Shown here: piece by piece, positions 2,272 through 60,344 of the stretch | Numbering within the stretch: position 1 is the first letter of the stretch | Layout: the number at the start of each line of letters is the position of its first letter | Source of the DNA: an uncultured Dokdonia sp. | GTDB lineage: Bacteria; Bacteroidota; Bacteroidia; Flavobacteriales; Flavobacteriaceae | DNA: 64,000 bases | Assembly: GCA_947503305.1 (NCBI GenBank) | Contig: CANNDF010000002.1 | Location: forward strand, 310,001 to 374,000 | Direction: 5' to 3' | Made by a program: the position numbers and the translations under genes | The notes under the pieces: model-generated | What the model saw: only the letters and a program-made list of their open reading frames with translations | Told to the model about the DNA's origin: nothing | The model's database searches: none

Positions 2272-2287
2272 CGCTTTCGCGAAAGCG
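2272..2287. repeat. Dispersed palindrome, copy 1 (exact core)
   Basis: Perfect 16-bp palindrome CGCTTTCGCGAAAGCG, 11 bases after the rpsJ stop codon. First of 14 copies of a GCTTTCGCGAAAGC element in the window. Function unknown. Confidence 0.85.
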
Positions 2288-2346
2288 TACTCATCACTAT
2301 AAAATGTCCTGAGCTGCGTGCAAGGGAAAAACGGAGAAAATACATT

Positions 2347-2377
2347 CAGGGTTGGAGGTATTTGACCCTGTTTTTTT
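2347..2377 (+). terminator. Terminator or attenuator between rpsJ and rplC
   Basis: CAGGGT (2347-2352) pairs with ACCCTG (2365-2370) around a 12-base loop, followed at once by seven T. This is a minimal intrinsic terminator shape with a short stem. It either ends the str operon or attenuates transcription into the S10 operon. A weak promoter (TTTG at 2361, TAGAATTT at 2381) could overlap it and supply rplC. Choice between these is inference. Confidence 0.5.
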
Positions 2378-2409
2378 GAATAGAATTTTAATAATTAATA
2401 TAAATAAAT

Positions 2410-3021
2410 ATGTCTGGGTTAATCGGAAAAAAAGTAGGTATGACCAGCATCTTTGACGAAAATGGGAAAAACGTTCCATGTACAGTCTTAGAAGTAGGTC
2501 CCTGCGTAGTTACCCAAGTCAGAACCACAGAAACTGACGGGTATGAAGCCCTTCAACTTGGTTTCGATGACGCAAAAAAGGCAAACAAAGCTGCTAGCGG
2601 TCACGCTAAAAAAGCAGGAACAGTTGCTAAGCGTAAAGTCGTTGAATTCCAAGGATTTGAAGGAGATTTTAAATTAGGTGATGCAATCACTGTAGATCAC
2701 TTTGAAGAAGGTGAGTTTGTAGATGTTGCAGGAACTTCAAAAGGAAAAGGTTTTCAAGGAGTTGTAAAGCGTCATGGATTTGCTGGAGTAGGACAAGCTA
2801 CTCATGGTCAGCATAACCGTTTGAGAGCTCCTGGATCTATTGGAGCTGCGTCTTATCCTGCACGTGTATTTAAAGGAATGCGCATGGCTGGACGTATGGG
2901 AGGTGATCAAGTAAAAGTTCAAAATTTAAGAGTTTTAAAAGTAGTTGCTGAAAAGAATCTACTTGTTGTGAAAGGATGTGTTCCTGGCCATAAAAACGCT
3001 TATGTAACTATTCAGAAATAA
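2410..3021 (+). CDS. rplC: 50S ribosomal protein L3
   Basis: Early-assembling large-subunit protein near the peptidyl transferase centre. The 203 residues match the family length. The signature region [14 protein letters not shown] and the loop [16 protein letters not shown] are clear. ATG at 2410 is the first start after the 149-base leader and gives the typical [14 protein letters not shown]-terminus. It is the first gene of the S10 operon here because rpsJ is separated from it. It overlaps rplD by one base. Confidence 0.97.
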
Positions 3022-3650
3022 TGAAAGTAGCAGTTGTAGATATAAAAGGAAAAGAAACAGGAAGAAAGGCAGACCTTTCTGATGCTGTTTTTGCTATAGA
3101 GCCTAATAACCATGCTGTATACTTAGATGTTAAGCAATATCTTGCTAATCAACGTCAAGGAACGCATAAGGCTAAAGAAAGAGCTGAAATCGCGGGATCA
3201 ACTCGTAAGATCAAAAAACAAAAAGGAACTGGTACAGCTCGTGCTGGTAGTATTAAGTCTGGTGTATTTAAAGGAGGGGGAAGGATGTTTGGTCCAAGAC
3301 CAAGAAACTACTCTTTTAAATTAAATAAAGGATTGAAAAGATTAGCTCGTCGTTCTGCACTTTCTTTAAAGGCAAATGACAAGGCAATCACAGTCGTAGA
3401 AGACTTTAATTTTGAGACTCCAAAAACAAAAGATTTTATCAATGTGCTTAAGGCGTTAGGTCTTGAAAACAAAAAATCTTTGATAGTGTTGGGAGAGTCA
3501 AATAATAATGTATATTTGTCGTCACGCAATTTAAAGAAGTCGGTGGTTGTAACCACTTCAGAATTAAGTACTTACAATATTGTTAATGCTAATAATGTTG
3601 TATTGCTTGAGGGTTCTTTAGAAGGTATTGAGACTAACTTAGCTAAATAA
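3021..3650 (+). CDS. rplD: 50S ribosomal protein L4
   Basis: Large-subunit protein lining the exit tunnel. 209 residues, normal length. The central [30 protein letters not shown] stretch (split by its tunnel loop) identifies L4. The start ATG shares one base with the rplC stop, implying translational coupling. In gammaproteobacteria L4 represses the S10 operon. Whether it does so here, at the 2261-2409 leader, is untested. Confidence 0.96.
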
Positions 3651-3656
3651 GACGTC

Positions 3657-3947
3657 ATGAGTATTTTAATAAAACCTGTTATTACAGAAAAAGCTACGAT
3701 GGATAGTGAGGTTAATAATCGCTATACTTTCGAAGTCAGTATGAGAACAAATAAGGTTGAAATTAAAAAAGCAGTAGAAGCTGCTTATGGTGTTTCAGTT
3801 GAAAAAGTTCGAACAATGAATGTCCGTCCAAATCGCAAATCTCGTTACACGAAATCTGGGGTTATTACTGGTAAAACAAATGCAATTAAAAAAGCAATTG
3901 TACAGTTGGCGGAAGGTGATACAATAGATTTTTATAACAACATTTAA
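3657..3947 (+). CDS. rplW: 50S ribosomal protein L23
   Basis: Binds 23S rRNA at the tunnel exit and is the docking site for trigger factor and SRP. 96 residues, family length. The N-terminal IKPVITEKATM and the basic loop VRPNRKSRYTKSG are typical. Six bases separate it from rplD and nine from rplB. Confidence 0.96.
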   Translation: MSILIKPVITEKATMDSEVNNRYTFEVSMRTNKVEIKKAVEAAYGVSVEKVRTMNVRPNRKSRYTKSGVITGKTNAIKKAIVQLAEGDTIDFYNNI

Positions 3948-3956
3948 TTTTAAAAA

Positions 3957-4781
3957 ATGTCAGTAAGAAAATTAAAACCTATCACTCCAGGGCAGCGATT
4001 TAGAGTTGTAAATGGTTTCGACCAGATTACGACTGACAAGCCGGAAAAGAGCCTTTTGGCTCCAAGAAAACGCTCAGGAGGTAGAAACAACACGGGAAAA
4101 ATGACCGTACGCCAACTAGGTGGGGGTCATAAAAGAAGATACCGTATTATTGATTTTAAGCGTAACAAGGAAGGTATCCCTGCTACCGTAGCTTCAATTC
4201 AATACGACCCAAACAGAACAGCATTTATTGCATTGCTTAATTACCAAGATGGTGAAAAGCGATATGTGATTGCTCAAAATGGTCTTCAAGTTGGTCAAAA
4301 TCTTTTATCTGGACCTAATGTAGCTCCAGAAATTGGAAATGCAATGCCGCTTTCAGATATACCATTAGGTACAATAATTTCTTGTATAGAATTACGTCCA
4401 GGTCAAGGAGCTGTGATGGCTCGTAGTGCTGGAGCTTTTGCTCAACTAATGGCTAGAGATGGTAAATTTGCTACGGTTAAATTACCTTCAGGTGAAACAA
4501 GATTAATTCTTGTTACATGTATGGCAACTATAGGAGCAGTATCTAATAGTGATCATCAATTACTTGTGTCTGGTAAAGCGGGTAGAAGTCGTTGGTTAGG
4601 AAGAAGACCTCGAGTACGTCCAGTAGTGATGAACCCAGTTGATCACCCAATGGGTGGTGGAGAAGGGAAATCTTCTGGAGGTCACCCTCGTAATAGAAAC
4701 GGTGTTCCTGCTAAAGGTTATAGAACGCGTTCTAAGACGAAAGCGAGTAATAAATATATTGTAGAACGTAGAAAGAAATAA
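3957..4781 (+). CDS. rplB: 50S ribosomal protein L2
   Basis: Highly conserved protein needed for subunit association and peptidyl transferase activity. 274 residues. The C-terminal signature [14 protein letters not shown], with the conserved His of the peptidyl transferase region, and the [15 protein letters not shown] tail are present. Located in normal S10-operon order between L23 and S19. Confidence 0.98.
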
Positions 4782-4787
4782 TAAGAT

Positions 4788-5066
4788 ATGGCACGTTCAT
4801 TAAAAAAGGGACCTTACGTTCACTATAAGTTAGAAAAGAAAGTAGCTGCAAACGTTGAGAGCAATAAGAAGACGGTCATAAAGACTTGGTCTCGTGCTTC
4901 AATGATTACCCCAGATTTTGTCGGGCAAACAATTGCAGTTCACAATGGTCGTCAGTTTGTACCAGTATATGTTACTGAAAACATGGTAGGCCACAAATTA
5001 GGAGAATTTTCACCGACACGTTCTTACAGAGGGCATGCAGGTGCAAAAAATAAAGGTAAAAAATAA
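4788..5066 (+). CDS. rpsS: 30S ribosomal protein S19
   Basis: Head protein of the small subunit that contacts S13. 92 residues. [29 protein letters not shown] and [16 protein letters not shown] are characteristic. Six-base gap from rplB, eight to rplV. Confidence 0.97.
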
Positions 5067-5074
5067 TTGAAGTC

Positions 5075-5485
5075 ATGGGAGTTCGTAAAAGAGAATCAGC
5101 AGAAGCGCGCAAGGCTGCAAATAAGCAAGTAGCTTTCGCTAAATTGAATAACTGCCCGACTTCACCTCGTAAAATGCGTCTAGTAGCAGATATGATACGA
5201 GGTGCAAAGGTGGAAAGAGCACTTCAATTGTTAAAGTTTAGTAATAAAGAGGCGTCTCGTAAAGTTGAAAAACTTGTCCTTTCTGCGATAGCAAATTGGG
5301 AAGCAAAAAATGAGGAAGCCAGTATAGAAGATGCAGACCTTTTTATCAAAGAGATAAGAGTTGATAGTGGTGCGATGTTAAAAAGACTTCGCCCTGCTCC
5401 ACAAGGTAGAGCACATAGAATAAGAAAACGCAGCAATCACGTTACAGTTGTGCTTGGTGCAAACGATAACACACAAAGCAATTAA
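5075..5485 (+). CDS. rplV: 50S ribosomal protein L22
   Basis: Spans the large subunit and lines the exit tunnel opposite L4. The 136 residues are longer than the roughly 110 of E. coli, mainly through an N-terminal [14 protein letters not shown] extension and an acidic internal segment, as is common in Bacteroidota. The beta-hairpin [22 protein letters not shown] near the C-terminus identifies it. Confidence 0.96.
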
Positions 5486-5489
5486 TTAG

Positions 5490-6206
5490 ATGGGACAGAA
5501 GACAAATCCAATCGGGAATCGCCTAGGTATTATTAGAGGATGGGAATCCAACTGGTACGGAGGTAATGACTACGGTGATAAACTTGCCGAAGACGATAAG
5601 ATTAGAAGATATATTCATGCTCGTTTAAGTAAAGCTAGTGTGTCACGTGTAATTATTGAGCGTACGCTTAAACTTGTAACCGTTACTATCACTACTGCTA
5701 GACCTGGTATTATCATTGGGAAAGGTGGGCAAGAGGTAGACAAGTTAAAAGAAGAGCTTAAGAAAATTACTGAAAAAGAAGTACAAATTAATATCCACGA
5801 AATCAAACGTCCGGAACTAGATGCGTTCTTGGTAGGATCTAGTGTTGCTCGTCAGATAGAGGGTCGTATCTCTTTCCGTCGTGCTATCAAGATGGCTATT
5901 GCGGCTGCAATGCGTATGAATGCAGAGGGTATTAAAATCCAAATTTCTGGACGTTTGAATGGCGCTGAAATGGCACGTTCTGAGTCTTATAAAGATGGAC
6001 GTATTCCTTTATCAACATTTAGAGCCGATATAGACTATGCTTTAGTAGAAGCGCATACTACTTATGGTAGATTGGGTATTAAAGTATGGATTATGAAAGG
6101 TGAAGTATATGGCAAAAGAGAACTTTCTCCATTAGTAGGTTTACAGAAAAAATCTTCTAAAGGTGGTTCTGGTAAGGATAACCGAGGACCTCGTCGTAGA
6201 AAGTAA
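5490..6206 (+). CDS. rpsC: 30S ribosomal protein S3
   Basis: Forms part of the mRNA entry channel and helicase activity. 238 residues. The type II KH domain with [15 protein letters not shown] is seen near residues 74-88, and the C-terminal domain carries [12 protein letters not shown] and [12 protein letters not shown]. The basic, Gly/Ser-rich tail is usual. Four-base gap from rplV. Confidence 0.97.
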
Positions 6207-6226
6207 TTTTTTAAAAGAACAAAAAA

Positions 6227-6649
6227 ATGTTACAGCCTAAAAAAACAAAATTCAGAAAGCAGCAAAAAGGACGTATGAAAGGACTCTCTCAGAGAGGGCA
6301 TACTCTTTCTAATGGTACTTTTGGAATTAAATCTACGGATTCTAATTTTATTACTGCTAGACAAATAGAAGCCGCTCGTATCGCAGCAACTCGTTACATG
6401 AAAAGGGAAGGTCAATTATGGATCAAAATATTCCCGGACAAGCCTATAACTAAGAAACCTCTAGAGGTACGTATGGGTAAAGGTAAAGGAGCTGTAGAAT
6501 ATTGGGCTGCTGTTGTAAAACCAGGACGTATTTTATTTGAAGTAGGAGGTGTGCCTGAGCCAGTGGCTAAAGAAGCACTTAGACTTGCTGCTCAAAAACT
6601 TCCTGTAAGAACGAAATATATCGTAGCTAGAGATTTTTCAGCTGAATAA
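6227..6649 (+). CDS. rplP: 50S ribosomal protein L16
   Basis: Binds near the A site and 5S rRNA. 140 residues. [19 protein letters not shown], the [19 protein letters not shown]-like segment and [12 protein letters not shown] are diagnostic. The 20-base gap from rpsC is slightly longer than the neighbours but shows no hairpin. Confidence 0.97.
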
Positions 6650-6660
6650 ATTTGAATACA

Positions 6661-6849
6661 ATGAAACAATCAGAGGTAAAAGGATTATCTGTAGCAGAAT
6701 TACAAGAAGAACTTGGTAAGGCTAAAAGATCTTATGCAGATCTTAAAATGGCACATACCATTTCTCCATTAGAGAATCCTATTCAATTGCGTACGTTAAG
6801 ACGTACTGTCGCAAGAATAGCAACTGAGTTAACTAAAAGACAAGATTAA
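6661..6849 (+). CDS. rpmC: 50S ribosomal protein L29
   Basis: Small helical protein at the tunnel exit next to L23. I chose ATG at 6661 (62 residues, [18 protein letters not shown]) over an in-frame TTG at 6652, because family members begin at this Met and the TTG lies two bases after the rplP stop. The [19 protein letters not shown] tail matches L29. Confidence 0.94.
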
Positions 6850-6860
6850 CGCTGCTAAAG

Positions 6861-7118
6861 ATGGAAAAAAGAAATTTAAGAAAAGAGCGTATCGGTGTAG
6901 TAACCAGTAACAAGATGCAAAAGTCTATCGTTGTTGCAGAGGTTAAAAAAGTAAAGCACCCTATGTATGGTAAATTCGTTTTGAAAACGAAAAAATACGT
7001 AGCACACGACGAAACAAATGACTGCAACGAAGGAGATACGGTTAGGATAATGGAAACACGTCCTATGAGTAAATCAAAATGTTGGAGACTAGTAGAAATC
7101 ATTGAAAGAGCTAAGTAA
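6861..7118 (+). CDS. rpsQ: 30S ribosomal protein S17
   Basis: OB-fold protein of the small-subunit body. 85 residues. [19 protein letters not shown] and [19 protein letters not shown] identify it. The stop overlaps the rplN ATG by one base, so the two are likely translationally coupled. Confidence 0.96.
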
Positions 7119-7486: not shown

Positions 7487-7497
7487 TACATTAGAAG

Positions 7498-7809: not shown

Positions 7810-7811
7810 TC

Positions 7812-8363: not shown

Positions 8364-8365
8364 TT

Positions 8366-8635: not shown

Positions 8636-8659
8636 ACAAATAAGTATTAACTGGTAGAA

Positions 8660-13729: not shown

Positions 13730-13777
13730 GAGGGAAATGTGGTTTGCGAAGGATTGACCTTAATTCCTAACCCCCTC
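13730..13777 (+). promoter_or_regulatory. Candidate structured leader upstream of rpsD
   Basis: Nested inverted repeats in the 79-base rpsK-rpsD gap: GAGGG (13730-13734) with CCCTC (13773-13777); GGTT (13741-13744) with AACC (13769-13772); AGGATT (13750-13755) with AATTCCT (13762-13768, one bulged T); hexaloop GACCTT. This is a long arm with two internal loops, ending 15 bases before the rpsD ATG. S4 autoregulates its own operon in E. coli and Bacillus, so an S4-binding leader is a reasonable hypothesis. I recall computational proposals of S4 leaders in this phylum but could not check them. Confidence 0.5.
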
Positions 13778-15434: not shown

Positions 15435-15450
15435 CGCTTTCGCGAAAGCG
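15435..15450. repeat. Dispersed palindrome, copy 2 (exact core)
   Basis: Perfect palindrome CGCTTTCGCGAAAGCG in the 50-base gap between rpoA and rplQ, ending 17 bases before the rplQ ATG. It fills most of an otherwise minimal operon gap. Confidence 0.85.
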
Positions 15451-23404: not shown

Positions 23405-24565
23405 CTACGTGACAGAAACAATTTTTGCCAATTCTTTTGCTTTTTCGGTAACATCTTTTAAGTTTCCATTTACTGAATCATAGGTGACTACAACTCCCAT
23501 TCGTCTATAGGGTCTAGAACTTGGTTTCCCAAATAATCTAAAATCTGATTTTGGGATTGCTGCTAGCTCCTCAATACCTGTGAAATTTGGATGGTCAGAA
23601 TGTTTGCTAGCGAGTATTACTGCACTAGCACCTATACGTTCCTGTGTAATTTCAGCAATTGGGAGCCCTAAAATAGCACGTAGATGCAATTCAAATTCAT
23701 TAAAATTTTGTGTATTCCCTAAGGTAACCATACCTGTGTCATGAGGTCTTGGAGAAAGTTCGGAAAAATAAACACCATCATCAGCTATAAAAAATTCAAC
23801 ACCCCATATACCTGCACCTGTTAAGGCTTCTGTTACTTTTTGTGCCATTTCTTGAGCAACCTGTAGATGTTGAGGTAGCATTTGAGCGGGTTGCCAGCTT
23901 TCTTGATAGTCCCCTCTTTCCTGACGATGACCTATGGGTGGGCAAAATAGTGTTAATCCATTATTTTGAGTAACGGTAAGCAATGTGATTTCATAATTGA
24001 AGTTAATAAACCTTTCTACAATTACTTCTGCGACATCTCCACGTGATCCTTCTTGCGCATATTCCCATGCTTTTTGTATATCACTTTCTGTTTTAATGGT
24101 GCTTTGTCCTTTTCCTGATGAGGACATTAATGGCTTTACAACACACGGCATTCCAATGCTAACTACTGCTTCTAATAACTCTTTCGCGGAAGCGGCATAT
24201 GTATAAGGAGCCGTTTTTAGACCAAGATCTATTGCTGCAAGATCTCGTATGGCTTTGCGATTCATTGTATAATTTGCGGCCTTTGCACTAGGAATTACAG
24301 TATAGCCTTGTTCTTCGTATGCATAAAAACGCTCTGTACGTATAGCTTCTATCTCTGGTACAATAAAATCAGGTTGATGTTTTGCTATAATGGTATCCAG
24401 TGCTTCACCATTTAACATATTAATAACCTCATAATCATCTGCAACGTGCATTGCAGGGGCATTTTTATAGCTATCTACAGCTATAATTTTTTGGCCTAAA
24501 CGTTGTGCTGCAATTACAAATTCTTTGCCCAGTTCTCCTGAGCCTAAAAGTAGGATTTTTGCCAT
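23405..24565 (-). CDS. purT: Formate-dependent phosphoribosylglycinamide formyltransferase
   Basis: ATP-grasp enzyme that makes formyl-GAR from GAR, formate and ATP in purine synthesis, without folate. 386 residues. Seen are the N-terminal [21 protein letters not shown], the ATP-binding loop [17 protein letters not shown] and the [13 protein letters not shown] segment. It carries a degraded copy of the dispersed palindrome in its coding sequence (read as AASAKE). Single gene on the minus strand. Confidence 0.94.
24180..24193. repeat. Dispersed palindrome, copy 3 (two substitutions, in purT)
   Basis: TCTTTCGCGGAAGC, two changes from the core GCTTTCGCGAAAGC. Inside purT, where the minus strand reads AASAKE. 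Confidence 0.55.
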
Positions 24566-28160: not shown

Positions 28161-28182
28161 GTACGCTTTCGCGAAAGCATAC
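28161..28182. repeat. Dispersed palindrome, copy 4 (exact core)
   Basis: GTACGCTTTCGCGAAAGCAT plus AC: exact core with arms symmetrical over 22 bp except one pair. In the 200-bp gap between two minus-strand lipoprotein genes. Confidence 0.85.
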
Positions 28183-31796: not shown

Positions 31797-31814
31797 ACGC
31801 TTTCGCGAAAGCGT
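31797..31814. repeat. Dispersed palindrome, copy 5 (exact core)
   Basis: Perfect 18-bp palindrome ACGCTTTCGCGAAAGCGT in the divergent gap between the desaturase gene and rsmG, 65 bases upstream of the rsmG -7 element. Confidence 0.85.
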
Positions 31815-34059: not shown

Positions 34060-34073
34060 GCTTTTGCGAAAGC
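34060..34073. repeat. Dispersed palindrome, copy 6 (one substitution)
   Basis: GCTTTTGCGAAAGC, one C-to-T change from the core, in the short gap after the candidate anti-sigma gene, 41 bases before the next start. Confidence 0.65.
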
Positions 34074-35242: not shown

Positions 35243-35266
35243 TATATGCTTTCGCAAAAGCATATA
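35243..35266. repeat. Dispersed palindrome, copy 7 (one substitution)
   Basis: Core GCTTTCGCAAAAGC at 35248-35261, one G-to-A change, with TATAT and ATATA arms that extend the symmetry to 24 bp. In the gap before dnaG. Confidence 0.7.
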
Positions 35267-38949: not shown

Positions 38950-39897
38950 ATGAAGAAATGGCTGGCTAGTATAGGCATACTATGTATTATAGTTGGGTGT
39001 AAACATGACGAAAGACTTCATCCAGAAATTGCAGATATTCCTGTGGTAATAACAGTAGATCGTTTTGATCGATCCTTTGCAAATGCTACCCCCGAAGAGT
39101 TGCCCTCATTAAAAAATAAATACCCTTATTTATTTTCAAAAAGATATAGTGATGAATTTTGGGAAGCAAAGCTTTCGGATACACTTCAAAAGGAGTTGGA
39201 AAGAGAAGTTGATATTGCTTTTAAAGAGCTAGCAGAAATAGAAGAAGATTTAGAATTATTATATAAACATATAAAGTATTACTATCCTGAGACTTCAGTT
39301 CCTAAGGTAATAAGTATTATTACTGAGGTAAGGAATAAAGTTGTGCTTACAGATTCTTTATTACTTATAGGATTGGACAATTATTTAGGGAAAGATCATT
39401 ACTTCTATGAAGGAATCCAAAAATATAAATCTAAAAATTTTAGAAAAGAACAAATTGACGTTGATGTGGCTTCTGCTTTCGCGAAAGCAAAAATAACCAG
39501 ACCTCAAACGTCTACTTTTTTAAATCAAATGATCTATGAAGGTAAGCAGTTATACCTAATGAAATTGTTATTGAGTCAAAAACCTATCCATGAAGTTTTG
39601 TCATATACAGAAGAGGAGTACACTTTTGCCGAATCTAATCAAGTAAATATGTGGGAATATTTTGTTTCTGGTCAATTACTGTATAGTACGGATAGAAAAC
39701 TACTTTCTCGATTTATAGATCCAGCTCCATTTTCTAAATTTTATTTAGACTTTGATAATGATACTCCTGGGAGATTAGGGAGATATGTGGGATACAAAAT
39801 TGTATTATCATATATGGAAAAGAATGACATTTCACTTAAAACTATGTTGCTGCAAGATGCAGAGACGATTTTTACAAACGCAAAATATAAACCCTAA
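38950..39897 (+). CDS. gldB: Gliding motility lipoprotein GldB
   Basis: 315 residues. Lipobox IIVGC with Cys17. The sequence pattern (VDRFDRSFA, YPYLFSKRYSDEFW, RLGRYVGYKIVLSYM) and the following gldC gene fit GldB, required for gliding and type IX secretion-related surface motility in Flavobacterium johnsoniae. An exact copy of the dispersed palindrome lies inside the gene at 39474-39489 and is translated as SAFAKAK. Two-base gap to gldC. Confidence 0.9.
   Translation: MKKWLASIGILCIIVGCKHDERLHPEIADIPVVITVDRFDRSFANATPEELPSLKNKYPYLFSKRYSDEFWEAKLSDTLQKELEREVDIAFKELAEIEEDLELLYKHIKYYYPETSVPKVISIITEVRNKVVLTDSLLLIGLDNYLGKDHYFYEGIQKYKSKNFRKEQIDVDVASAFAKAKITRPQTSTFLNQMIYEGKQLYLMKLLLSQKPIHEVLSYTEEEYTFAESNQVNMWEYFVSGQLLYSTDRKLLSRFIDPAPFSKFYLDFDNDTPGRLGRYVGYKIVLSYMEKNDISLKTMLLQDAETIFTNAKYKP
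39474..39489. repeat. Dispersed palindrome, copy 8 (exact core, inside gldB)
   Basis: Perfect 16-bp palindrome TGCTTTCGCGAAAGCA within the gldB reading frame, encoding AFAKA. Shows that the element is tolerated inside a protein gene with its sequence unchanged. Confidence 0.85.
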
Positions 39898-40269: not shown

Positions 40270-40641
40270 ATGAGATTACTCTTTGTGTATAATGCAAACT
40301 CAGGCTTAGTTAATAACTGGATAGATATTGCTCATAAGGTTGTACATCCTAATAGCTATGAGTGTGATCTTTGTTTATTAACACATGGTAGCTTTCGCGA
40401 AAAACGACTCTGGAAAACATTTCGCGATCGTAGTAAAATACATATGGAGTTTTATCATAAAGACGAATTTCTTAAAAAATTTGCTTCTAAATGGCTGCCT
40501 AAGTATGACTTTCCCATGATACTATTTGAAAAAAATGGGTACTTAGAACCTTTTATAACCGCTCCAATGTTTAAGGACATACATTCTGTAGACGATTTAA
40601 TATCAAAAATTGAGCTTCTAGCTTTCAATACTATAAATTAA
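40270..40641 (+). CDS. Conserved small protein of unknown function
   Basis: 123 residues, soluble. MRLLFVYNANSGLVNNWIDIAHKVVHPNSYECDLCLLTHGSF looks like the start of a conserved flavobacterial family that I believe is often annotated loosely as a GTPase, but no P-loop or other GTPase motif is present. The CDLC pair could bind a metal. A half-degraded palindrome copy at 40391 is read as SFREK. Downstream of gldC by 31 bases. Function unknown. Confidence 0.75.
   Translation: MRLLFVYNANSGLVNNWIDIAHKVVHPNSYECDLCLLTHGSFREKRLWKTFRDRSKIHMEFYHKDEFLKKFASKWLPKYDFPMILFEKNGYLEPFITAPMFKDIHSVDDLISKIELLAFNTIN
40391..40404. repeat. Dispersed palindrome, copy 9 (two substitutions, coding)
   Basis: GCTTTCGCGAAAAA, intact up to the last two bases of the core. 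Read as SFREK in the 123-residue protein. Confidence 0.5.
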
Positions 40642-44446: not shown

Positions 44447-44470
44447 AGTATGCTTTCGCGAAAGCATGCT
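44447..44470. repeat. Dispersed palindrome, copy 10 (exact core)
   Basis: Perfect 18-bp centre ATGCTTTCGCGAAAGCAT (44450-44467), symmetry extending to 24 bp with one mismatched pair. In the divergent 307-bp gap between the hydrolase and mraZ genes. Confidence 0.85.
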
Positions 44471-46302: not shown

Positions 46303-48294
46303 ATGGCAACCACAGAGAAGAGCATATTAAACCGTTTGTATTTTGTAGCTGGATGTATGTTCATCTTTGCACTGGCGGTTACGATTAAGCTTGTGGATAT
46401 TCAGTTATTCAAAGGTGAAAAGTATAGAAAACTAGCTATCACTAGTACGGAGAAAATGGTAACGATTCCAGCTACTCGTGGAAATCTTTATGCTGGAGAT
46501 GGTAGCTTACTTGCCACTTCTGTTATAAAATATGATATTCGATGGGATGCAGTTTCTCCTACAGAAGAACATTTTGGAGAAACTATTATAGGGCTAAGCG
46601 AAGGCCTGTCGGAGTTACTTGGAAAACCTAAGGCCTATTATGAGGCTCGTTTACGTAAAGCTAGAGCAACAAAAAACAGATATCTCTTTATTGCACGGGA
46701 CTTAAGTTATGGTGATTTTATAAAGATTAAATCCTTACCTCTTTTTAATAAAGGTCAATTTAGAGGAGGGATTATTGTAGAGCAACATACAGAAAGAGAA
46801 CATCCATTAGACAAAATGGCCGAACGTACTGTAGGGTATGAGCGAAAAGATGATAGTGGATATTTTACAAGGGTCGGGTTAGAAGGTGCTTATGGACATT
46901 ATCTAAGAGGGAAAGAAGGACGTAGACTTAAACAAAAAATTGCTAAAGGGGAATGGAAGCCTTTAGGAGTCGGTAATATTGTTGAGCCTAGAGATGGGTA
47001 CGATGTAATATCTACTATAGATGTAAATATTCAGGACATTGCTCATAATGCATTACTTACAAGTCTTGAAAAATTTAAAGCAGATCATGGTTGTGTTGTA
47101 GTAATGGAAACCAAAACAGGGGAAATAAAGGCGATTTCTAATTTGGGTCGTACTTCTGAAGGAAAATACTATGAACGACTTAATTATGCAGTAGGAGAGT
47201 CCCATGAACCCGGGAGTACTTTTAAGTTAATGGCTATGGTTGCTGCTCTAGAAGATAAGGCTATAGACACGAGTATGGTTATTGATACAGAAAAGGGTCG
47301 TGTAAAATTTTATGACCGCACAGTTTACGATTCCAAATGGGGTGGTTATGGAAAAGTAAGTGCAGCAAGGGCTTTTGAGTTAAGTAGCAATACGGCCTTT
47401 GCAAAAATGATAAACGAACCCTATAAGAAGGATCCAAAGCGTTTTGTAAAACGATTATTCAATATGGGTCTAAATGAGAAGCTAGGGTTAGAAATTAAAG
47501 GGGAAGGAGAGCCTACATTTCCATATCCAGGCGATAAGAATTGGTATGGAACAACATTGCCTTGGATGGCTTTTGGATATGGAATTGAACTAACACCGCT
47601 TCAAACGTTGACATTTTATAATGCAATAGCAAATGATGGAGAGATGATAAAACCGCGTTTTATCAAAGAAGTAAAGGAATGGGATGTTACTGTAGAAAAA
47701 TTTGAAAAAGAAGTTATTAACCCACGTATTGCATCACAGTCTACCATCAATGCTGTTAAGAAAATGATGGAAAATACAGTACGCCGTGGAACTGCAAAGA
47801 ATATATATAGTAAGGAGTTTTCTATGGCAGGTAAGACAGGTACATGTCAAACAGAATACTGGATTGAACCTAATCGCTATATAGCTTCTTTTGCAGGTTA
47901 TTTTCCTGCAGATAATCCTAAGTACTCATGTATTGTCGTGATTCATAAACCAGAAAAATCATTGGGGTATTATGGTAATATCGTTGCAGCTCCTGTTTTT
48001 AAACGGATCGCTCAGAAAATATATTCAGATACACCTGTAATAGACGAGGTATTAATTCCTGATGCTAATAGTCCTTTAATAGAAAAAGATTATCAGAATT
48101 ATTATACACAAGAAAATAAAACACATAAAACTATTCCCAATGTAAAGGGGATGAGTGGTATGGATGCTGTAGCACTGTTGGAAAATTTAGGATTAAAAGT
48201 TCGCTTTCGCGGAAGCGGAAAAGTAAAGAATCAATCTATAGACGCTGGTACGGCACTAAAAAAAGGAGTAACAATCTCATTAGAATTATCTTGA
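46303..48294 (+). CDS. ftsI: Division-specific transpeptidase FtsI (PBP3) with PASTA domain
   Basis: Class B penicillin-binding protein that cross-links septal peptidoglycan. 663 residues: N-terminal membrane anchor (about 12-32), pedestal domain, and transpeptidase with SxxK at Ser305-Lys308, SSN at 361-363 and KTGT at 511-514. A single C-terminal PASTA domain (about 600-663, IPNVKGMSGMDAVALLENLGLKV) is present, as in many Bacteroidota and Gram-positives but not E. coli. The PASTA region contains palindrome copy 11, read as RFRGSG. Confidence 0.96.
   Translation: MATTEKSILNRLYFVAGCMFIFALAVTIKLVDIQLFKGEKYRKLAITSTEKMVTIPATRGNLYAGDGSLLATSVIKYDIRWDAVSPTEEHFGETIIGLSEGLSELLGKPKAYYEARLRKARATKNRYLFIARDLSYGDFIKIKSLPLFNKGQFRGGIIVEQHTEREHPLDKMAERTVGYERKDDSGYFTRVGLEGAYGHYLRGKEGRRLKQKIAKGEWKPLGVGNIVEPRDGYDVISTIDVNIQDIAHNALLTSLEKFKADHGCVVVMETKTGEIKAISNLGRTSEGKYYERLNYAVGESHEPGSTFKLMAMVAALEDKAIDTSMVIDTEKGRVKFYDRTVYDSKWGGYGKVSAARAFELSSNTAFAKMINEPYKKDPKRFVKRLFNMGLNEKLGLEIKGEGEPTFPYPGDKNWYGTTLPWMAFGYGIELTPLQTLTFYNAIANDGEMIKPRFIKEVKEWDVTVEKFEKEVINPRIASQSTINAVKKMMENTVRRGTAKNIYSKEFSMAGKTGTCQTEYWIEPNRYIASFAGYFPADNPKYSCIVVIHKPEKSLGYYGNIVAAPVFKRIAQKIYSDTPVIDEVLIPDANSPLIEKDYQNYYTQENKTHKTIPNVKGMSGMDAVALLENLGLKVRFRGSGKVKNQSIDAGTALKKGVTISLELS
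48203..48216. repeat. Dispersed palindrome, copy 11 (one substitution, in ftsI)
   Basis: GCTTTCGCGGAAGC, one A-to-G change. Encodes part of RFRGSG in the PASTA domain of FtsI. Confidence 0.6.
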
Positions 48295-50993: not shown

Positions 50994-51013
50994 TACGCTT
51001 TCGCGAAAGCGTA
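50994..51013. repeat. Dispersed palindrome, copy 12 (best copy)
   Basis: Perfect 20-bp palindrome TACGCTTTCGCGAAAGCGTA. It begins right after the mraY stop codon and ends eight bases before the murD ATG, so it takes up nearly the whole 29-base gap inside an essential operon. Confidence 0.9.
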
Positions 51014-54762: not shown

Positions 54763-56111
54763 GTACATTAAAAAACATACAAAACTTTTACTTCATCGGG
54801 ATTGGTGGAATTGGAATGAGTGCACTTGCGTTTTATTTTAAAACTAATGGTTACAACGTTGCAGGTTATGATAAAACACCTAGTGATGTGACGAGTGCTT
54901 TGGCCAAAGAAAAAATTGATATCCATTTTGAAGATAGAGGAACTGATGTTAAAGAAGATTTTACAGATACGAAAAACACTCTTGTTGTATACACTCCTGC
55001 AGTACCAGATAGTTTTGGGGAATTAGTGCATTTTCGCGAAAGCGGATATATGATAAAAAAGCGAGCAGAAGTTCTTGGGATGATTGCCAATGAAAAATTT
55101 TGTGCTGCTGTTGCAGGTACTCATGGAAAAACAACTACGTCTAGTATTTTAGGACACTTACTTGCAGAAACTGGAATTGGAGTGACAGCATTTATCGGTG
55201 GATTTACAAATAATTACAATGGTAATTTAATACAAAAAGGGAATGATGTTATTGTCGTGGAAGCAGATGAGTTTGATCGCTCTTTTTTACAATTAAAACC
55301 TAATGTGGCATGTATTACATCTATGGATGCCGATCATTTGGATATTTACGGAGATGCTTCTGAACTTGAAAAAACGTTTAAAGCATTTGGAAATTTAGTC
55401 CCTTCTGAAAAATTATTTATTAAAAACGGATTGCCATTAGAAGGGAATACAGTAGGTGTAAATGATAATGCATCTTACAGAGCGCAAAATATACGTATTG
55501 ATAGAGGGGCATATATTTTTGATTTTAAATACCCTAATGGCTTATTAAAAGAGTTAATATTTAACCTACCTGGATGGCATAATTTGTCCAATGCAGTAAC
55601 AGCTTTGGGAATGGCAATAGCTTGTGGTTCCCCGACCGAGTGTCTTCCCAAAGCTTTGCGTACTTACCAAGGAGTAAATAGAAGGTTTACCTATAGAATA
55701 CGAACAGAATCTTGTGTTCTTATAGATGATTATGCACATCATCCTACAGAGATTGATGCTATACATCAGAGTGTGACAGAAATGTATCCTGATGAAAAAG
55801 TGCTTGTTGTTTTTCAGCCACACTTGTATAGTAGGACTCAGGACTTTATGGACGATTTTGCAATGCAACTTTCGCAATTTGATGAAGTCCTTTTGTTAGA
55901 TATATACCCAGCAAGAGAATTACCTATTTCTGGAGTGTCGAGTAGTGAATTACTAAAAAAAATAACAACAAAAAGGAAGCTATTAGTGTCTAAAGATGAC
56001 TTGCCAGAAATGATAAAGAATGCTTCTCAAAAAATAGTCGTCATGCTGGGAGCTGGTGATATAGGTGTAGAAATTATAAAAGTAACAAACTATTTGAAAC
56101 GTGCGAGTTAA
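54759..56111 (+). CDS. murC: UDP-MurNAc-L-alanine ligase MurC
   Basis: First Mur ligase, adding L-Ala to UDP-MurNAc. 450 residues from GTG 54759, overlapping murG by four bases. [13 protein letters not shown] near the start and the ATP loop [10 protein letters not shown] at 119-128 are clear, as are [10 protein letters not shown] and [10 protein letters not shown] degraded palindrome copy is read as HFRESG (residues 91-96). Confidence 0.96.
55030..55043. repeat. Dispersed palindrome, copy 13 (two substitutions, in murC)
   Basis: ATTTTCGCGAAAGC, two changes at the left end of the core. Encodes HFRES in MurC, a different frame from the copy in gldB. Confidence 0.5.
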
Positions 56112-56817
56112 TTGGTCTTATATAAAGTTAGTGGTTTTGATAGGGTTTACCTTATTTCTATATGCATTTTCCTCTCATAGAAATGATAAGAGAACTGTAG
56201 AGGATATTGTGATACAATTTACGGATGAAAGCACTCCTTTTGTGACTCGTGATGCAGTTAATAAATTGTTAATACAAAATGATGCTAGTGTTACGGGTAC
56301 ACCTAAAGAAAAATTAGCTTTGAAAGAAATGGAGGCCAGATTAAACGCCCACCCAATTATCAATAAGGCAGACATTTATGTTACAATGTCTGGATCAGTA
56401 GGAGTCACTATTCAACAGCGTAAACCGATTGCTAGATTGAATGGTAAGACTTCTTTTTATATAGATCAAGATGGTGAAGTAATGCCGCTTTCTGATAATT
56501 TTTCGGCGAGAGTGCCATTGGTTATAGGTGTTTCTAAGGAAGATACTAAGGCTGTTTTTGAATTAGTGTCCTTTATTGTAGAAGATGAATTTTTAAAAAA
56601 ACACATTGTAGGAATTCATAAAGAACAAGATGGTGGCTATGAATTAACACCAAGAAAATTAGGATATAAAATAAAGATAGGCGCTGTAGAAAGTTTAGTA
56701 GAGAAGTTTAGTAATTACAAAGCATTTTATCAGAAAGCTCAAAAAGATAAAACATTAGATAACTATAGATTAATAAATCTTAAGTATAGAAGGCAAGTAG
56801 TTTGCAAAAAAGTATAA
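56101..56817 (+). CDS. ftsQ: Cell division protein FtsQ
   Basis: Bitopic division protein linking early and late divisome parts. 238 residues from GTG 56101, overlapping murC by 11 bases. Short cytoplasmic N-terminus, membrane helix (IKLVVLIGFTLFLYAF), then a POTRA-like domain and the FtsQ domain with QQRKPIARLNGKTSFYIDQDGEVMPL. Identity also rests on its place between murC and ftsA. Confidence 0.9.
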   Translation: MRVNWSYIKLVVLIGFTLFLYAFSSHRNDKRTVEDIVIQFTDESTPFVTRDAVNKLLIQNDASVTGTPKEKLALKEMEARLNAHPIINKADIYVTMSGSVGVTIQQRKPIARLNGKTSFYIDQDGEVMPLSDNFSARVPLVIGVSKEDTKAVFELVSFIVEDEFLKKHIVGIHKEQDGGYELTPRKLGYKIKIGAVESLVEKFSNYKAFYQKAQKDKTLDNYRLINLKYRRQVVCKKV

Positions 56818-56885
56818 GTGGGGAATGAGTAGGTGTATATGGAAAGGAATTGACATAGGCATCAATATCTCAAAACTGTAGTCAT

Positions 56886-58226
56886 ATGGAACAACAAAAC
56901 ATTGCAGTAGGATTAGACATTGGAACAACAAAGATTGTTGCCATGATAGGTCGTTATAATGAGTACAATAAAGTAGAGATTCTTGGAATTGGAAAATCTA
57001 AAAGTCTCGGTGTGCATAGAGGTGTTGTAAATAATATTACACAGACAATTCAGTCTGTACAACAAGCAGTTCAAGAAGCTGAGAGTGTGTCTGGTATAAA
57101 AATTCAGGATGTAGTTGTTGGAATTGCTGGACAACATATACGTAGTTTACAGCATAGTGATTATATCACAAGGGCCAATGCAGATGAGGTTATAGATAAC
57201 CATGATATTGAACTTTTATGTAATCAAGTTCATAAGCTTGTCATGTTACCAGGAGAGGAGATCATTCATGTATTGCCACAAGAATATAAGGTGGATGGTC
57301 AGAGTGAGATTAAGGAACCTGTAGGGATGTATGGAGGGCGTGTAGAAGCAAATTTTCATGTCGTTGTAGGACAAGTAGCATCCATACGTAATATAGGACG
57401 CTGTGTAAAAAGTGCTGGGCTTAGCTTAGATACAATTACATTAGAACCTCTTGCTTCTGCAAATGCTGTATTAAGTCAAGAAGAGAAAGAAGCGGGGGTA
57501 GCTCTTATTGATATAGGAGGAGGAACCACAGATCTTGCCATATTTAAAGATGGTATTATTCGCCATACAGCGGTAATTCCTTTTGGAGGAAATGTAATTA
57601 CTGAAGATATAAAAGAAGGTTGTTCTATTATTGAAAAACAAGCCGAATTACTTAAAATAAAATTTGGATCTGCATGGCCAGGTGAAAATAAAGATAATGA
57701 GATTGTTTCTATTCCAGGCTTACGAGGTCGTGAACCTAAGGAAATTACACTAAAAAACCTTTCTAAAATTATTCATGCTCGCGTAGTTGAAATTATAGAA
57801 CAAGTATATCTTGAAATTAAAAATTACGGTCACGAAGAACAAAAAAAGAAACTAATTGCAGGTATTGTATTAACAGGAGGAGGATCTCAGTTAAAACACT
57901 TAAAACAACTTGTAGAATATATCACAGGGATGGATACTAGGATCGGATATCCTAATGAACACCTTGCAGGTGATAGTGACGCAGAAACGACAAGTCCATT
58001 ATTTGCAACAGCAGTAGGACTGGTTATGAATAGTCTTGAGCAAGGGAGGTATAACAGTCCTGTAGTTGAAGATAATACTGACACTACAAGTACTGAAAAT
58101 ACTATCTCTGAATTAAATGATAACGGAACAGATGTTACGACAGGAACAGTACCACCACAGGCTAAGAAAAGTATTTTTGACAGGTGGGCAGAGAAGTTTA
58201 AAGATTTCTTAGATAATGCAGAGTAA
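56886..58226 (+). CDS. ftsA: Cell division protein FtsA
   Basis: Actin-like ATPase that anchors FtsZ to the membrane. 446 residues. VGLDIGTTKIVAMIG (phosphate 1), ALIDIGGGTTDLAIF (phosphate 2) and IVLTGGGSQLKHL (adenosine) motifs are present. After an Asp/Asn/Thr-rich linker, the C-terminus SIFDRWAEKFKDFLDNAE is an amphipathic membrane-targeting helix. Separated from ftsQ by 68 bases. Confidence 0.96.
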   Translation: MEQQNIAVGLDIGTTKIVAMIGRYNEYNKVEILGIGKSKSLGVHRGVVNNITQTIQSVQQAVQEAESVSGIKIQDVVVGIAGQHIRSLQHSDYITRANADEVIDNHDIELLCNQVHKLVMLPGEEIIHVLPQEYKVDGQSEIKEPVGMYGGRVEANFHVVVGQVASIRNIGRCVKSAGLSLDTITLEPLASANAVLSQEEKEAGVALIDIGGGTTDLAIFKDGIIRHTAVIPFGGNVITEDIKEGCSIIEKQAELLKIKFGSAWPGENKDNEIVSIPGLRGREPKEITLKNLSKIIHARVVEIIEQVYLEIKNYGHEEQKKKLIAGIVLTGGGSQLKHLKQLVEYITGMDTRIGYPNEHLAGDSDAETTSPLFATAVGLVMNSLEQGRYNSPVVEDNTDTTSTENTISELNDNGTDVTTGTVPPQAKKSIFDRWAEKFKDFLDNAE

Positions 58227-58328
58227 TAAAGAATAATAAAATGCCTTTTTTGGGCAAATAAATATAAGTAGATACTAATCAATGAACCTTCGTTTGAAGG
58301 ATAAAATAAAGGGGCTAAAATCAAAAAT
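58227..58328 (+). promoter_or_regulatory. ftsA-ftsZ gap with two small hairpins
   Basis: TGCC-TTTTTT-GGCA-type (about 58243-58257) and CCTTC-GTTT-GAAGG (about 58290-58303) inverted repeats in a 102-base gap before ftsZ. Neither has a T-tract on its 3' side. A leader or extra promoter for ftsZ is possible but unproven. Confidence 0.3.
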
Positions 58329-60254
58329 ATGAGTACGACAGAATTTGATGGAATTACATTTGATCTACCAAAAAACCAAAGCAATGTCATAAAAGTCATT
58401 GGAGTTGGAGGGGGCGGTAGTAATGCTATTAATCACATGTTTCAACAAGGAATTAAGGGAGTTGATTTTGTGATTTGTAATACAGATGCACAGGCACTAG
58501 AGAATAGTACAGTGCCTATTAAAATTCAACTTGGAGTAGGGTTGACAGAAGGGCTAGGAGCTGGAGCAAATCCAGATGTGGGAGAGCTAGCTGCTATAGA
58601 AAGTGAAGATGATATTAAAGAGATGCTAGGGAGTAATACCAAAATGATCTTTATTACTGCTGGAATGGGAGGTGGTACTGGAACTGGAGCAGCACCAATA
58701 ATAGCAAAAATGGCAAGAGAATTAGACATCCTGGTCGTAGGGATTGTAACTATTCCTTTCCAGTTTGAAGGAAAAATGCGTAATGATCAAGCCCAAAAAG
58801 GAGTTGATCGCTTGAGAGCTCATGTAGATTCTTTGATTGTTATTAATAATAATAAACTTCGTGAAGTATATGGTAATTTAGGATTTAAGGCAGGTTTTAG
58901 TAAGGCTGATGAAGTCCTTGCAACTGCTTCCCGTGGTATTGCCGAAGTAATTACACATCACTATACACAGAATATTGACCTTCGTGATGCAAAAACAGTA
59001 TTGAGTAAAAGTGGTACTGCTATTATGGGTAGTGCCTCGGCGAGTGGTACAAATCGAGCACATGAGGCTATTTCAAAAGCATTAGATTCTCCATTATTAA
59101 ATGATAATAAAATTACTGGAGCTAAGAATGTATTACTTCTTATCGTATCAGGAAGCGATGAGATTACTATAGATGAAATAGGAGAAATTAATGATCATAT
59201 TCAGGCAGAGGCAGGTAATAGTGCAAATATCATTATGGGGGTAGGAGAAGATGAAGCATTGGGAGATGCAATATCTGTTACAATTATTGCTACCGGATTT
59301 AATGTAGAACAACAGAATGAAATAGTTAATGTAGAAACAAAAAAGATCATTCATACACTTGAAGAAGAGCAGAAAGCTGAGCAAGATTTGATGCCCGAAT
59401 CAACAGTTATTGCGCCTGCTATTATTGAAGAAGAGGAGGAAGTAACTCCTGAAAAGATCATACATACATTAGATTTAGATGAGTTAGAGAGTCCAGTAAG
59501 TGTAGCTCCAATAGGAGAACAAATCGAAATGGATATCATTCCTACGACAAGTATCATTAAGGAAATTGATGTAGTCTATGATGAGGTATTAGCCACGCAA
59601 GAAGAGGATTTTGAGATCATTGATACAACAATACGTCATGAACTGGAAATTCCTGAAGATGAGACTACAAATATGCTGTCTTTTGATATGCCTATGAATG
59701 AGGAAGATTCAAAATCTGTAGTTCCAGAAGAGGCTCCGGTACTTTTTGAATTAAATGAAGAAGTGGCCTCTATAGAGGTAAAAGAACCTATAGAAATCAT
59801 TCCGGTAACCGAACTTTCTGTGCAAGGCGAGACGCGTTATAGCCTTGAAGATTATATGGAAGTTGAAGATACAATGACTTCAGCACAACAATCTGATGAA
59901 TCTAAGGTAGAAGAAGAAGAGATTGTTTTTGAAACAAAGACAGTAGCTCCAGCACCTACAGAAGAAGATAAAGATGAAGAGATTGACCCTATGAATAGCC
60001 CAATCTCAAAACTTTTGATAGATCGTGCAGCAGAACGTAAACGTAAGATGAAAGAGTTTAACTATAAATTTCATCATAATCAATCTCGTATTGAAGAGAT
60101 AGAAAAACAACCTGCGTATAAGCGTATGGGAATAGATCTTAATAGTACTCCTGATAAAGAAGGAAATCTATCACGTACTACATTATCTACCGATGATAAT
60201 GAAGATATCCAATTGCGAAGTAATAACTCGTTTCTACATGATAATGTAGATTAA
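58329..60254 (+). CDS. ftsZ: Cell division protein FtsZ with long acidic C-terminal linker
   Basis: Tubulin-like GTPase forming the Z ring. 641 residues against about 380 in E. coli. The GTPase core (about 20-330) has VGGGGSNAINHM, the tubulin signature GGGTGTG at 114-120 and the T7 loop NIDLRDAKT. Residues about 335-590 form a Glu/Asp/Thr/Val-rich, probably disordered linker. A conserved basic helix (LLIDRAAERKRKMKEFNYKF) and QPAYKRMGIDLN, the likely partner-binding peptide, follow, then a 30-residue tail. Long linkers are usual in Flavobacteriaceae. Confidence 0.96.
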   Translation: MSTTEFDGITFDLPKNQSNVIKVIGVGGGGSNAINHMFQQGIKGVDFVICNTDAQALENSTVPIKIQLGVGLTEGLGAGANPDVGELAAIESEDDIKEMLGSNTKMIFITAGMGGGTGTGAAPIIAKMARELDILVVGIVTIPFQFEGKMRNDQAQKGVDRLRAHVDSLIVINNNKLREVYGNLGFKAGFSKADEVLATASRGIAEVITHHYTQNIDLRDAKTVLSKSGTAIMGSASASGTNRAHEAISKALDSPLLNDNKITGAKNVLLLIVSGSDEITIDEIGEINDHIQAEAGNSANIIMGVGEDEALGDAISVTIIATGFNVEQQNEIVNVETKKIIHTLEEEQKAEQDLMPESTVIAPAIIEEEEEVTPEKIIHTLDLDELESPVSVAPIGEQIEMDIIPTTSIIKEIDVVYDEVLATQEEDFEIIDTTIRHELEIPEDETTNMLSFDMPMNEEDSKSVVPEEAPVLFELNEEVASIEVKEPIEIIPVTELSVQGETRYSLEDYMEVEDTMTSAQQSDESKVEEEEIVFETKTVAPAPTEEDKDEEIDPMNSPISKLLIDRAAERKRKMKEFNYKFHHNQSRIEEIEKQPAYKRMGIDLNSTPDKEGNLSRTTLSTDDNEDIQLRSNNSFLHDNVD

Positions 60255-60275
60255 AGCAAACCCCATATATTTCGA

Positions 60276-60317
60276 GAAACCCGTTAGTTTTCCCCCTACT
60301 TTCGGGTTTCTTTTTTT
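60276..60317 (+). terminator. Terminator of the division cluster
   Basis: GAAACCCG (60276-60283) pairs with CGGGTTTC (60303-60310), then T7. Twenty-two bases after the ftsZ stop. Confidence 0.88.
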
Positions 60318-60324
60318 ATCTTCG
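60317..60324 (+). promoter_or_regulatory. Possible -7 element upstream of yqeY
   Basis: TATCTTCG, one change from TAnnTTTG, overlapping the end of the ftsZ terminator and 37 bases before the yqeY ATG. Palindrome copy 14 would lie in the 5' untranslated region. Confidence 0.4.
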
Positions 60325-60330
60325 CAGTTC

Positions 60331-60344
60331 GCTTTCGCGAAAGC
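60331..60344. repeat. Dispersed palindrome, copy 14 (exact core)
   Basis: GCTTTCGCGAAAGC, ending 17 bases before the yqeY ATG, the same distance as copy 2 from rplQ. Confidence 0.85.

Follow-up and report, generated by a model that had tools for sequence, protein, structure and literature searches.

The best-known uptake sequences are those of two proteobacterial families, the DUS of the Neisseriaceae and the USS of the Pasteurellaceae. They comprise hundreds of near-exact short motifs that are evenly spread over coding and non-coding DNA, common to a group of related bacteria, and gained and lost by point mutation, and the palindrome described here, GCTTTCGCGAAAGC, is alike in all these respects. 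Other comparable elements include Chi sites, which are frequent short sequences marking self DNA, parS and Noc-binding sites, which are dimer-bound palindromes with TTTC..GAAA half-sites, and REP/RAYT hairpins, which are mostly confined to spacers. HIP1 of cyanobacteria (GCGATCGC / GGCGATCGCC) is a highly iterated perfect palindrome in which exact copies dominate, as they do here (5648 exact to 1830 one-mismatch copies for HIP1; PMC1939737 Table 6). The same table lists 1008 Chi sites in the 4.64 Mb of E. coli K12, and the paper describes uptake sequences as non-palindromic.

In contrast to DUS and USS, GCTTTCGCGAAAGC is palindromic, has a longer core (14 bp), is sparser (one per 4–8 kb), belongs to another phylum and occurs in two non-sister clades, and its uptake role is putative; because its core is perfectly palindromic, we do not file it as a standard DUS. 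It is a different sequence from HIP1 (identity is excluded, the core being GCTTTCGCGAAAGC and not GCGATCGC), with a longer core, 16 nt of biased composition to either side and a sparser distribution. It is close to Chi in density but is palindromic and longer. Unlike parS and Noc sites it occurs everywhere in hundreds of copies, and its half-site spacing is presumably off by one base per side. A text search of the literature did not find the GCTTTCGCGAAAGC 14-mer, and for TTTCGCGAAA it returned only papers that are unrelated judging by title and the start of the abstract.

The window, the whole 64,000-nt stretch of uncultured Dokdonia sp. DNA that was analysed, was scanned for matches to GCTTTCGCGAAAGC with up to two mismatches. 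It holds 14 copies (8 exact, 3 with one mismatch and 3 with two), whereas sequences shuffled by dinucleotides have 0.11 matches on average and at most 2, so the palindromic repeat reported by the first-pass annotation is real; its list of copies stands, with coordinates that were shifted by 0–5 bases. Its division into nine intergenic and five coding copies fits the ORF list, provided that the copy at 34060, which overlaps the TTG start of an ORF at 34064, counts as intergenic. The copies are as follows, together with one example of the footprint described below (no strand assigned; "scan" denotes the window scan and "ORFs" the ORF list).

2273..2286, exact copy, rpsJ/rplC spacer (scan)
2254..2305, one instance of the inferred 52-bp footprint at full length (base frequencies around copies, three genomes)
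15436..15449, exact copy, rpoA/rplQ spacer (scan)
24180..24193, two-mismatch copy within an ATP-grasp gene (scan, ORFs)
28165..28178, exact copy, spacer flanked by two minus-strand genes (scan, ORFs)
31799..31812, exact copy, divergent spacer between a desaturase gene and a GidB-family gene (scan, ORFs)
34060..34073, one-mismatch copy, spacer / TTG ORF start (scan, ORFs)
35248..35261, one-mismatch copy, spacer (scan, ORFs)
39475..39488, exact copy within a gldB-like gene (scan)
40391..40404, two-mismatch copy within a 123-aa ORF without Pfam match (scan, ORFs)
44452..44465, exact copy, divergent spacer 5' of mraZ (scan)
48203..48216, one-mismatch copy within an ftsI-like (PBP) gene (scan)
50997..51010, exact copy, mraY/murD spacer (scan)
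55030..55043, two-mismatch copy within a Mur-ligase (murC-like) gene (scan)
60331..60344, exact copy, ftsZ/yqeY-like spacer (scan)

The source Dokdonia genome contains 570 exact copies against 0 for the reversed control sequence, a strong over-representation. Copy numbers are high throughout two marine genera (288–905 exact copies per genome), with 369–905 in 18/18 Dokdonia and 288–857 in 23/23 Nonlabens genomes. Among the genomes searched, high counts are limited to these genera and one further genome, G484 (408 copies). Of 397 family genomes, 6 exceed 100 copies and the other 391 hold 19 or fewer; low counts occur in genus g163 (16 and 19 copies), in G359 (17 copies in an 88% complete bin, with 1 copy in its genus mate G562) and in g225, in which scattered decayed copies were seen, and G320 and G377 have 0 copies each.

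Exact copies outnumber one-mismatch copies by 61:14, 194:20, 39:8 and 20:3 in four genomes, and the second of these ratios, obtained from 740 kb, contrasts with 438:947 for a Pasteurellaceae 10-mer (PMC1939737 Table 6). The copies had been described as irregularly spaced, but their spacing is more even than chance would give (CV 0.48 and 0.46 in two genomes) and close pairs are rare, with 1, 4, 0 and 0 pairs <1 kb apart in four genomes where 6.5, 24.9, 6.1 and 2.3 are expected. Along the G311 chromosome they are even (1–8 copies per 20 kb over 37 stretches), with no gradient in density. Between half and two thirds of copies are coding (32/61, 90/194 and 24/37 in three sets, based on crude gene calls), and the remainder of contexts occupied includes tandem, convergent and divergent spacers, with some copies in mid-operon.

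The core is a perfect 14-bp palindrome, and both outer arms share the consensus TAC..GTA. The earlier proposal that the outer arms vary while staying complementary fails, since matching within copies is near the base-frequency prediction: for 292 copies pooled from three genomes, the arm match at positions -1 to -3 is 0.627 against 0.591 when shuffled, a small excess that may derive partly from pooling, and at -4 to -8 it is 0.323 against 0.362, below expectation. Each half-site is therefore constrained and pairing hardly so, and arms that covary so little argue that the element is not a hairpin. Base frequencies around 61, 194 and 39 copies (three genomes) indicate that the 16-nt 5' flank is C-poor on each strand, which extends the palindrome to about 52 bp in the order 16-nt C-poor 5' flank, three TAC-like bases, core, three GTA-like bases and 16-nt G-poor 3' flank. 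The 5' flanks are rich in G/T, and those of coding copies too are low in C, with 1.22 per 16 nt versus 2.95 at random. Beyond the footprint there is no conserved flank. Methylation of TCGCGA alone, suggested previously, is an unlikely cause, as the constraint covers 14 core positions and the flanks. The near-independent half-sites, symmetric extended footprint, exactness and occurrence in all gene contexts support the suggestion of a protein-binding site, which a sequence-specific protein would read on double-stranded DNA.

Copies are retained at syntenic places across species, and the cases of decay that were seen involve point mutation. The rpsJ/rplC spacer carries an exact copy in 10/13 Dokdonia, in G484 and in 1/3 Nonlabens, and the rpoA/rplQ spacer carries a copy in 13/13 Dokdonia examined, in 0/3 Nonlabens and not in G484. 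In Nonlabens G681 a T run follows the rpsJ/rplC copy, and two relatives have another hairpin-like sequence there. Copies are absent from a 63-kb stretch that encodes an integrase and a T4SS coupling protein (an integrative element), and from 35.0 of the 35.7 kb of one Nonlabens phage.

Our tentative reading is that selection maintains the palindrome as a signal of self DNA, and that it most likely serves as a DNA uptake sequence. The flavobacterial machinery for natural transformation would then bind and import DNA of the same group, which carries one site every 4–8 kb, in preference to other DNA; uptake bias together with selection would keep the sites exact and evenly distributed while leaving them free to lie in spacers or within codons. 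We count for this reading the copy numbers, exactness, even spacing, the flank in coding copies, the absence from the integrative element and phage, the host and receptor trees described below, and the findings in Riemerella; against it we count the palindromy, the acidic candidate receptors, the zero-copy G320 and G377 within the receptor clade, the dependence on labels, the DUF5689 tree and the pattern of protein identities. We infer uptake as the function, competence of these bacteria, and the CarboxypepD_reg outer-membrane protein or its complex as the reader; no report of competence in Dokdonia or Nonlabens was found in the literature matched by our search. In Riemerella anatipestifer, transformation requires both a CarboxypepD_reg protein and the DUF5689 protein next to it (PMC8459023), and R. 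columbina is described as favouring its own DNA, for which no motif is known (PMC7965970). For flavobacterial self-DNA recognition, the palindrome would supply a motif and its density together with a candidate receptor.

The distribution of carriers departs from the host tree, on which Dokdonia and Nonlabens as one carrier clade are rejected (p-AU 5e-16). On the tree of the CarboxypepD_reg outer-membrane protein the same clade is not rejected (p 0.25); there Dokdonia, Nonlabens, G484, g225 and g163 form one clade with the non-carriers G320 and G377 (SH-aLRT 100). This tree also rejects the grouping of Dokdonia, G484, g225, G318 and G342 that the host tree shows (0.004). For speed or short data, 5 of 42 rows were dropped from the host tree and 3 of 40 from the receptor tree, and the latter omits 11 of 51 genomes compared for identity (G343, G325, G445, G332, G336, G087, G313, G476, G514, G505 and G455), of which G343, G313 and G087 fall outside the carrier group in a smaller tree. 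Support from the receptor tree varies with the carrier status assigned to the low-copy genera, and variants were run with G359 as non-carrier or carrier and with g163 as a remnant carrier. With only Dokdonia, Nonlabens and G484 as carriers, the host and receptor trees require 3:3 changes, which become 2:2 on adding g225, 3:2 on adding g225 and g163, and 4:3 on adding G359 as well; with this last labelling, the receptor tree rejects a single clade of carriers (p 7e-7). Carriers are not brought together in the DUF5689 tree. The outer-membrane protein of G484 is divergent (51% to G000), and Nonlabens (58–65% identity) is not set apart from the non-carriers G377, G320, G371 and G420 (61–66%). The two genes are adjacent in 40/40 genomes fetched, carriers and non-carriers alike; 28/28 of the DUF5689 proteins in the alignment match PF18942, the check for CarboxypepD_reg covered 3 outer-membrane proteins, and the DUF5689 protein is acidic in 8/8 genomes checked and the outer-membrane protein in 7/8. 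A joint reading, in which the palindrome would be a palindromic uptake sequence, the first in Bacteroidota, read from both ends by an outer-membrane transformation complex of the flavobacterial CarboxypepD_reg barrel and DUF5689 lipoprotein, with non-sister sharing through lateral transfer of the receptor gene and Dokdonia and Nonlabens forming one DNA-exchange club, is on the whole unlikely to hold in all its parts.

The main rival, a credible if somewhat unlikely one, is a dimeric cytoplasmic nucleoid-associated or segregation protein that organises the chromosome by binding the palindrome every ~4–8 kb. Such a protein would suit the perfect dyad symmetry and near-independence of the half-sites, the symmetric 52-bp footprint, more regular spacing than random, the uniform distribution along one chromosome and the presence in all sequence contexts. 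The absence of a gradient along G311, the toleration of a 63-kb gap, and the sharing of one 14-mer by two non-sister clades, which requires reader transfer or repeated loss, argue against it, as does the single ParB_N match in 13/14 high-copy genomes (a second is present only in G306); matches to ParB_N (PF02195) number one in 3/4 low-copy genomes, two in G446, and one or two in non-carriers, and a reader could belong to another family. Were the reader cytoplasmic, the palindrome would be a genome-wide chromosome-organising site, to our knowledge unlike parS, matS or SlmA sites.

We consider it improbable that the palindrome is a HIP1-like iterated sequence that has no dedicated reader and is kept by methylation or by a bias of mutation or repair. 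Palindromy, hundreds of copies in coding and non-coding DNA, point-mutational turnover and the dominance of exact copies are shared, but a 14-bp core bordered at either end by 16 nt of biased composition, in coding copies too, is probably more than a methylase or short-patch repair would read. A Chi-like signal, in which a helicase-nuclease of double-strand-break repair would read the palindrome either way as a mark of self DNA, seems quite improbable: the density near that of Chi in E. coli K12, the G/T-rich 5' flanks and the lack of copies in one integrative element and one phage are in its favour, but known Chi sites are short and non-palindromic. A REP/MITE-type mobile palindrome, a transcription terminator or an RNA processing hairpin, the first and last of which had been raised in the first-pass annotation, is highly improbable despite the palindromy and the T run in G681, given the little arm covariation, the location of at least half of the copies in genes (where REP/RAYT elements would be mostly confined to spacers), the occupation of divergent as well as convergent spacers and mid-operon positions, the lack of a conserved flank past the footprint, the shared syntenic positions, and loss by point mutation, with a remnant of 1–2 mismatches kept in 3/5 unshared syntenic spacers.

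The palindrome may also tag DNA that has moved out of these genera, an example being a heavy-metal efflux cluster in other genera.

The palindrome GCTTTCGCGAAAGC is a sequence-specific, symmetric and strongly constrained DNA signal that reaches high counts in few genera. The window holds 14 matches, eight exact and six with one or two mismatches, compared with 0.11 expected from dinucleotide shuffles, upholding the claim of the first-pass annotation that its 14 dispersed copies lie far above chance. This excess extends to the whole of the window's own genome (G000; 4.26 Mb, 57 contigs), with 570 exact copies and none of a reversed-control sequence, and to related flavobacteria. A 39-genome count gave 369–905 copies in all 18 Dokdonia genomes and none in the 21 genomes outside this genus, and Nonlabens is a second carrier genus (288–857 copies in 23/23 genomes). 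Across 397 genomes of the flavobacterial family, six held 408–857 copies and the other 391 held 19 or fewer, while in an order-level sample (n = 296) only G000 exceeded 6 copies. Searching for the core extended by GTA among named genomes returned at least 80 records, and 68 of those listed were Dokdonia or Nonlabens. Low counts were found in three more genera, each represented by two genomes: g225 (29 and 23 places at ≤1 mismatch, 9 and 6 exact, spread across many contigs), g163 (26 and 28; 16 and 19 exact) and g138 (24 and 2; 17 and 1 exact), the reversed control giving 0 or 1 in this search. Genomes G133, G316 and G313 had no palindrome places and G317 had one.

In the 740 kb analysed of the Dokdonia genome G311, 194 copies are exact, 20 differ at one position and 29 at two, and exact to one-mismatch counts in three other genomes were 61:14, 39:8 and 20:3; Table 6 of PMC1939737 gives 438 and 947 for a Pasteurellaceae uptake 10-mer and 5648 and 1830 for a HIP1 10-mer in Synechocystis. 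Just beyond the core, TAC/GTA is preferred on both sides, and the 5′ flank from −4 to −19 on either strand is C-poor and G-richer, with an edge at ~20 bp (1.0–1.2 C per 16-nt flank vs 2.95 in random 16-mers). Coding copies show the same C-poor flank (1.22 C per 16 nt), and the bias is less clear in G484, a further high-copy genome outside both carrier genera (45% G+C, 20 copies examined). Likeness of the arms within one copy is slightly above expectation at −1 to −3 and below it at −4 to −8, which does not bear out the annotation's view that the arms stay complementary and does not fit a hairpin. This pattern fits a protein reading each half-site, supporting the protein-binding site among the annotation's candidates but not the RNA hairpin.

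By crude gene calls, coding copies make up 32/61 in G000, 90/194 in G311 and 24/37 in the Nonlabens genome G681, with Ala-Phe-Ala-Lys as the preferred frame; per-kb density is 5–10 times higher in spacers than in genes, and tandem, convergent and divergent spacers alike carry copies. Close pairs are avoided, with intervals <1 kb numbering 1 vs 6.5 expected in G000, 4 vs 24.9 in G311, 0 vs 6.1 in G681 and 0 vs 2.3 in G484. The coefficient of variation of spacing (gaps >20 kb excluded) is 0.48 in G000, where the null is ~0.84, and 0.72, 0.46 and 0.62 in G311, G681 and G484, respectively; spacing is thus less irregular than first described. Copies are spread throughout the G311 chromosome with no gradient along it. 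One integrative element and one phage lack the signal. A 63.5-kb copy-free stretch of G000 is taken for an integrative element because genes for a tyrosine integrase and for a T4SS coupling protein lie in it, and Nonlabens phage P12024S has no copy in 35.0 of its 35.7 kb, even at two mismatches. The stretch is a likely integrative conjugative element (G000:C1:326200–389710; loci L017–L020), one of whose ends lies close to the gene for a large DUF6443/Peptidase_M91 protein.

Within the S10-spc-alpha operon, the same three spacers carry the palindrome repeatedly. It occupies the rpoA–rplQ spacer in 13/13 Dokdonia examined and the rpsJ–rplC spacer in 10/13; at the latter, G299 and G311 keep one-mismatch remnants and G305 (locus L272) has a half-site followed by a ~1 kb insert with a possible gene. 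A copy at rpsJ–rplC is also present in G484 and one of three Nonlabens, and none was found in the four others examined (G384, G578, G133 and G316). Among 52 syntenic spacers compared between G000 and G311, three carry a copy in both, two in G000 only and three in G311 only, with a remnant of 1–2 mismatches left in 3/5 unshared cases; both coding copies with a comparable orthologue are exact, and 30 others lack an orthologue in the compared DNA. This turnover is consistent with copies being gained and lost by point mutation under selection; the shared syntenic spacers and point-mismatch remnants disfavour transposition, and with it the REP/MITE-type element proposed initially. The rpoA–rplQ spacer (L270–L281) itself takes two unlike forms among Dokdonia species, long-leader and short, with the palindrome in both.

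A host tree of 20 conserved proteins groups Dokdonia with G484 and g225, with Nonlabens far off. Constraining Dokdonia and Nonlabens together was rejected (p-AU 5e-16), as were constraints adding G484 (4e-4) or G484, g225 and g163 (9e-11), and therefore the 14-mer arose, moved by transfer or was lost more than once. Transformation of Riemerella, also a flavobacterium, requires a DUF5689 surface protein and an adjacent carboxypeptidase-regulatory-domain protein, predicted to lie in the outer membrane, as reported in PMC8459023. Homologues of the corresponding G000 pair were present in 40/40 genomes fetched (Pfam domains confirmed in three pairs, DUF5689 in 28). The DUF5689 protein has a sub-cut-off match to an NCBI family named after M949_1556, which we take to be a Riemerella locus tag, and domains and gene order make the pair a candidate equivalent of the Riemerella genes. 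The outer-membrane protein tree unites Dokdonia, Nonlabens, G484, g225, g163 and the copy-free genomes G320 and G377 in a single clade of 25 rows (SH-aLRT 100). On this tree, neither that set without G320 and G377 (p 0.34) nor Dokdonia plus Nonlabens (p 0.25) was rejected, and the host clade including G318 and G342 was (0.004). Identities of the outer-membrane protein and FtsI correlate at −0.62 (28 genomes outside Dokdonia), showing that this gene departs from host kinship. The group was chosen after an earlier, smaller tree, so the test was not blind, and its outcome turns on carrier labels: the fewest changes on host and receptor trees are 3:3 with Dokdonia, Nonlabens and G484 as carriers, 2:2 adding g225, 3:2 including g225 and g163, and 4:3 adding the low-copy genome G359, a labelling under which the receptor tree no longer allows a single carrier clade (p 7e-7). 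Given this label dependence, the non-blind test and a DUF5689 tree more mixed than that of its partner, the receptor evidence is suggestive, not strong.

We infer that the palindrome is a self-DNA recognition mark and tentatively favour a DNA uptake sequence, by which DNA of the own group would be recognised during uptake. Density, exactness, spacing, codon tolerance and discordant host history fit this reading, as do the known preference of one flavobacterium for its own DNA (PMC7965970) and the compatible history of one transformation protein. Its palindromic form, the mostly acidic receptor candidates and the exceptions call for caution; the main rival, which we consider somewhat less likely, is that a cytoplasmic dimeric chromosome-organising protein reads the palindrome. 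The putative uptake sequence would act like known uptake or self signals but is palindromic, unlike those described in PMC1939737, and is therefore not classed as a standard uptake sequence. No description of this palindrome was found in the open-access literature searched.

Some low-copy genera hold palindromes clustered close together. Loci L310–L314, from four genera otherwise poor in copies, share homologous DNA; in the three scanned (L310, L311 and L314) it forms a heavy-metal/copper efflux cluster encoding an RND pump, P-type ATPases and a multicopper oxidase, with palindromes near or within these genes. This DNA looks like an export from a carrier genus, in the presumed direction, with its marks retained. 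Pairs of copies separated by 933 bp were seen repeatedly, in several genomes.

At the gathering threshold, Rfam returned only two matches in the whole window (G000:C2:310001–374000):
window 13741–13772, S4-Flavobacteria ribosomal leader
window 60839–60912, tRNA
Upstream of rplC, in the rpsJ–rplC spacer (window 2305–2378), which had no Rfam match at this threshold, lies a conserved stretch, TGTCC.GAGCTGCG.GC.A.GGAAAAACGG, followed by a stem-like part. It is present in Dokdonia and G484, altered in four low- or non-carriers examined and absent from the three Nonlabens examined, and may be an undescribed ribosomal-protein leader. The 10-mers GGAACGGTAA/GAACGGTAAC occur 30 times in four 20-kb stretches of G311 (L290–L293), possibly reflecting a repetitive protein.
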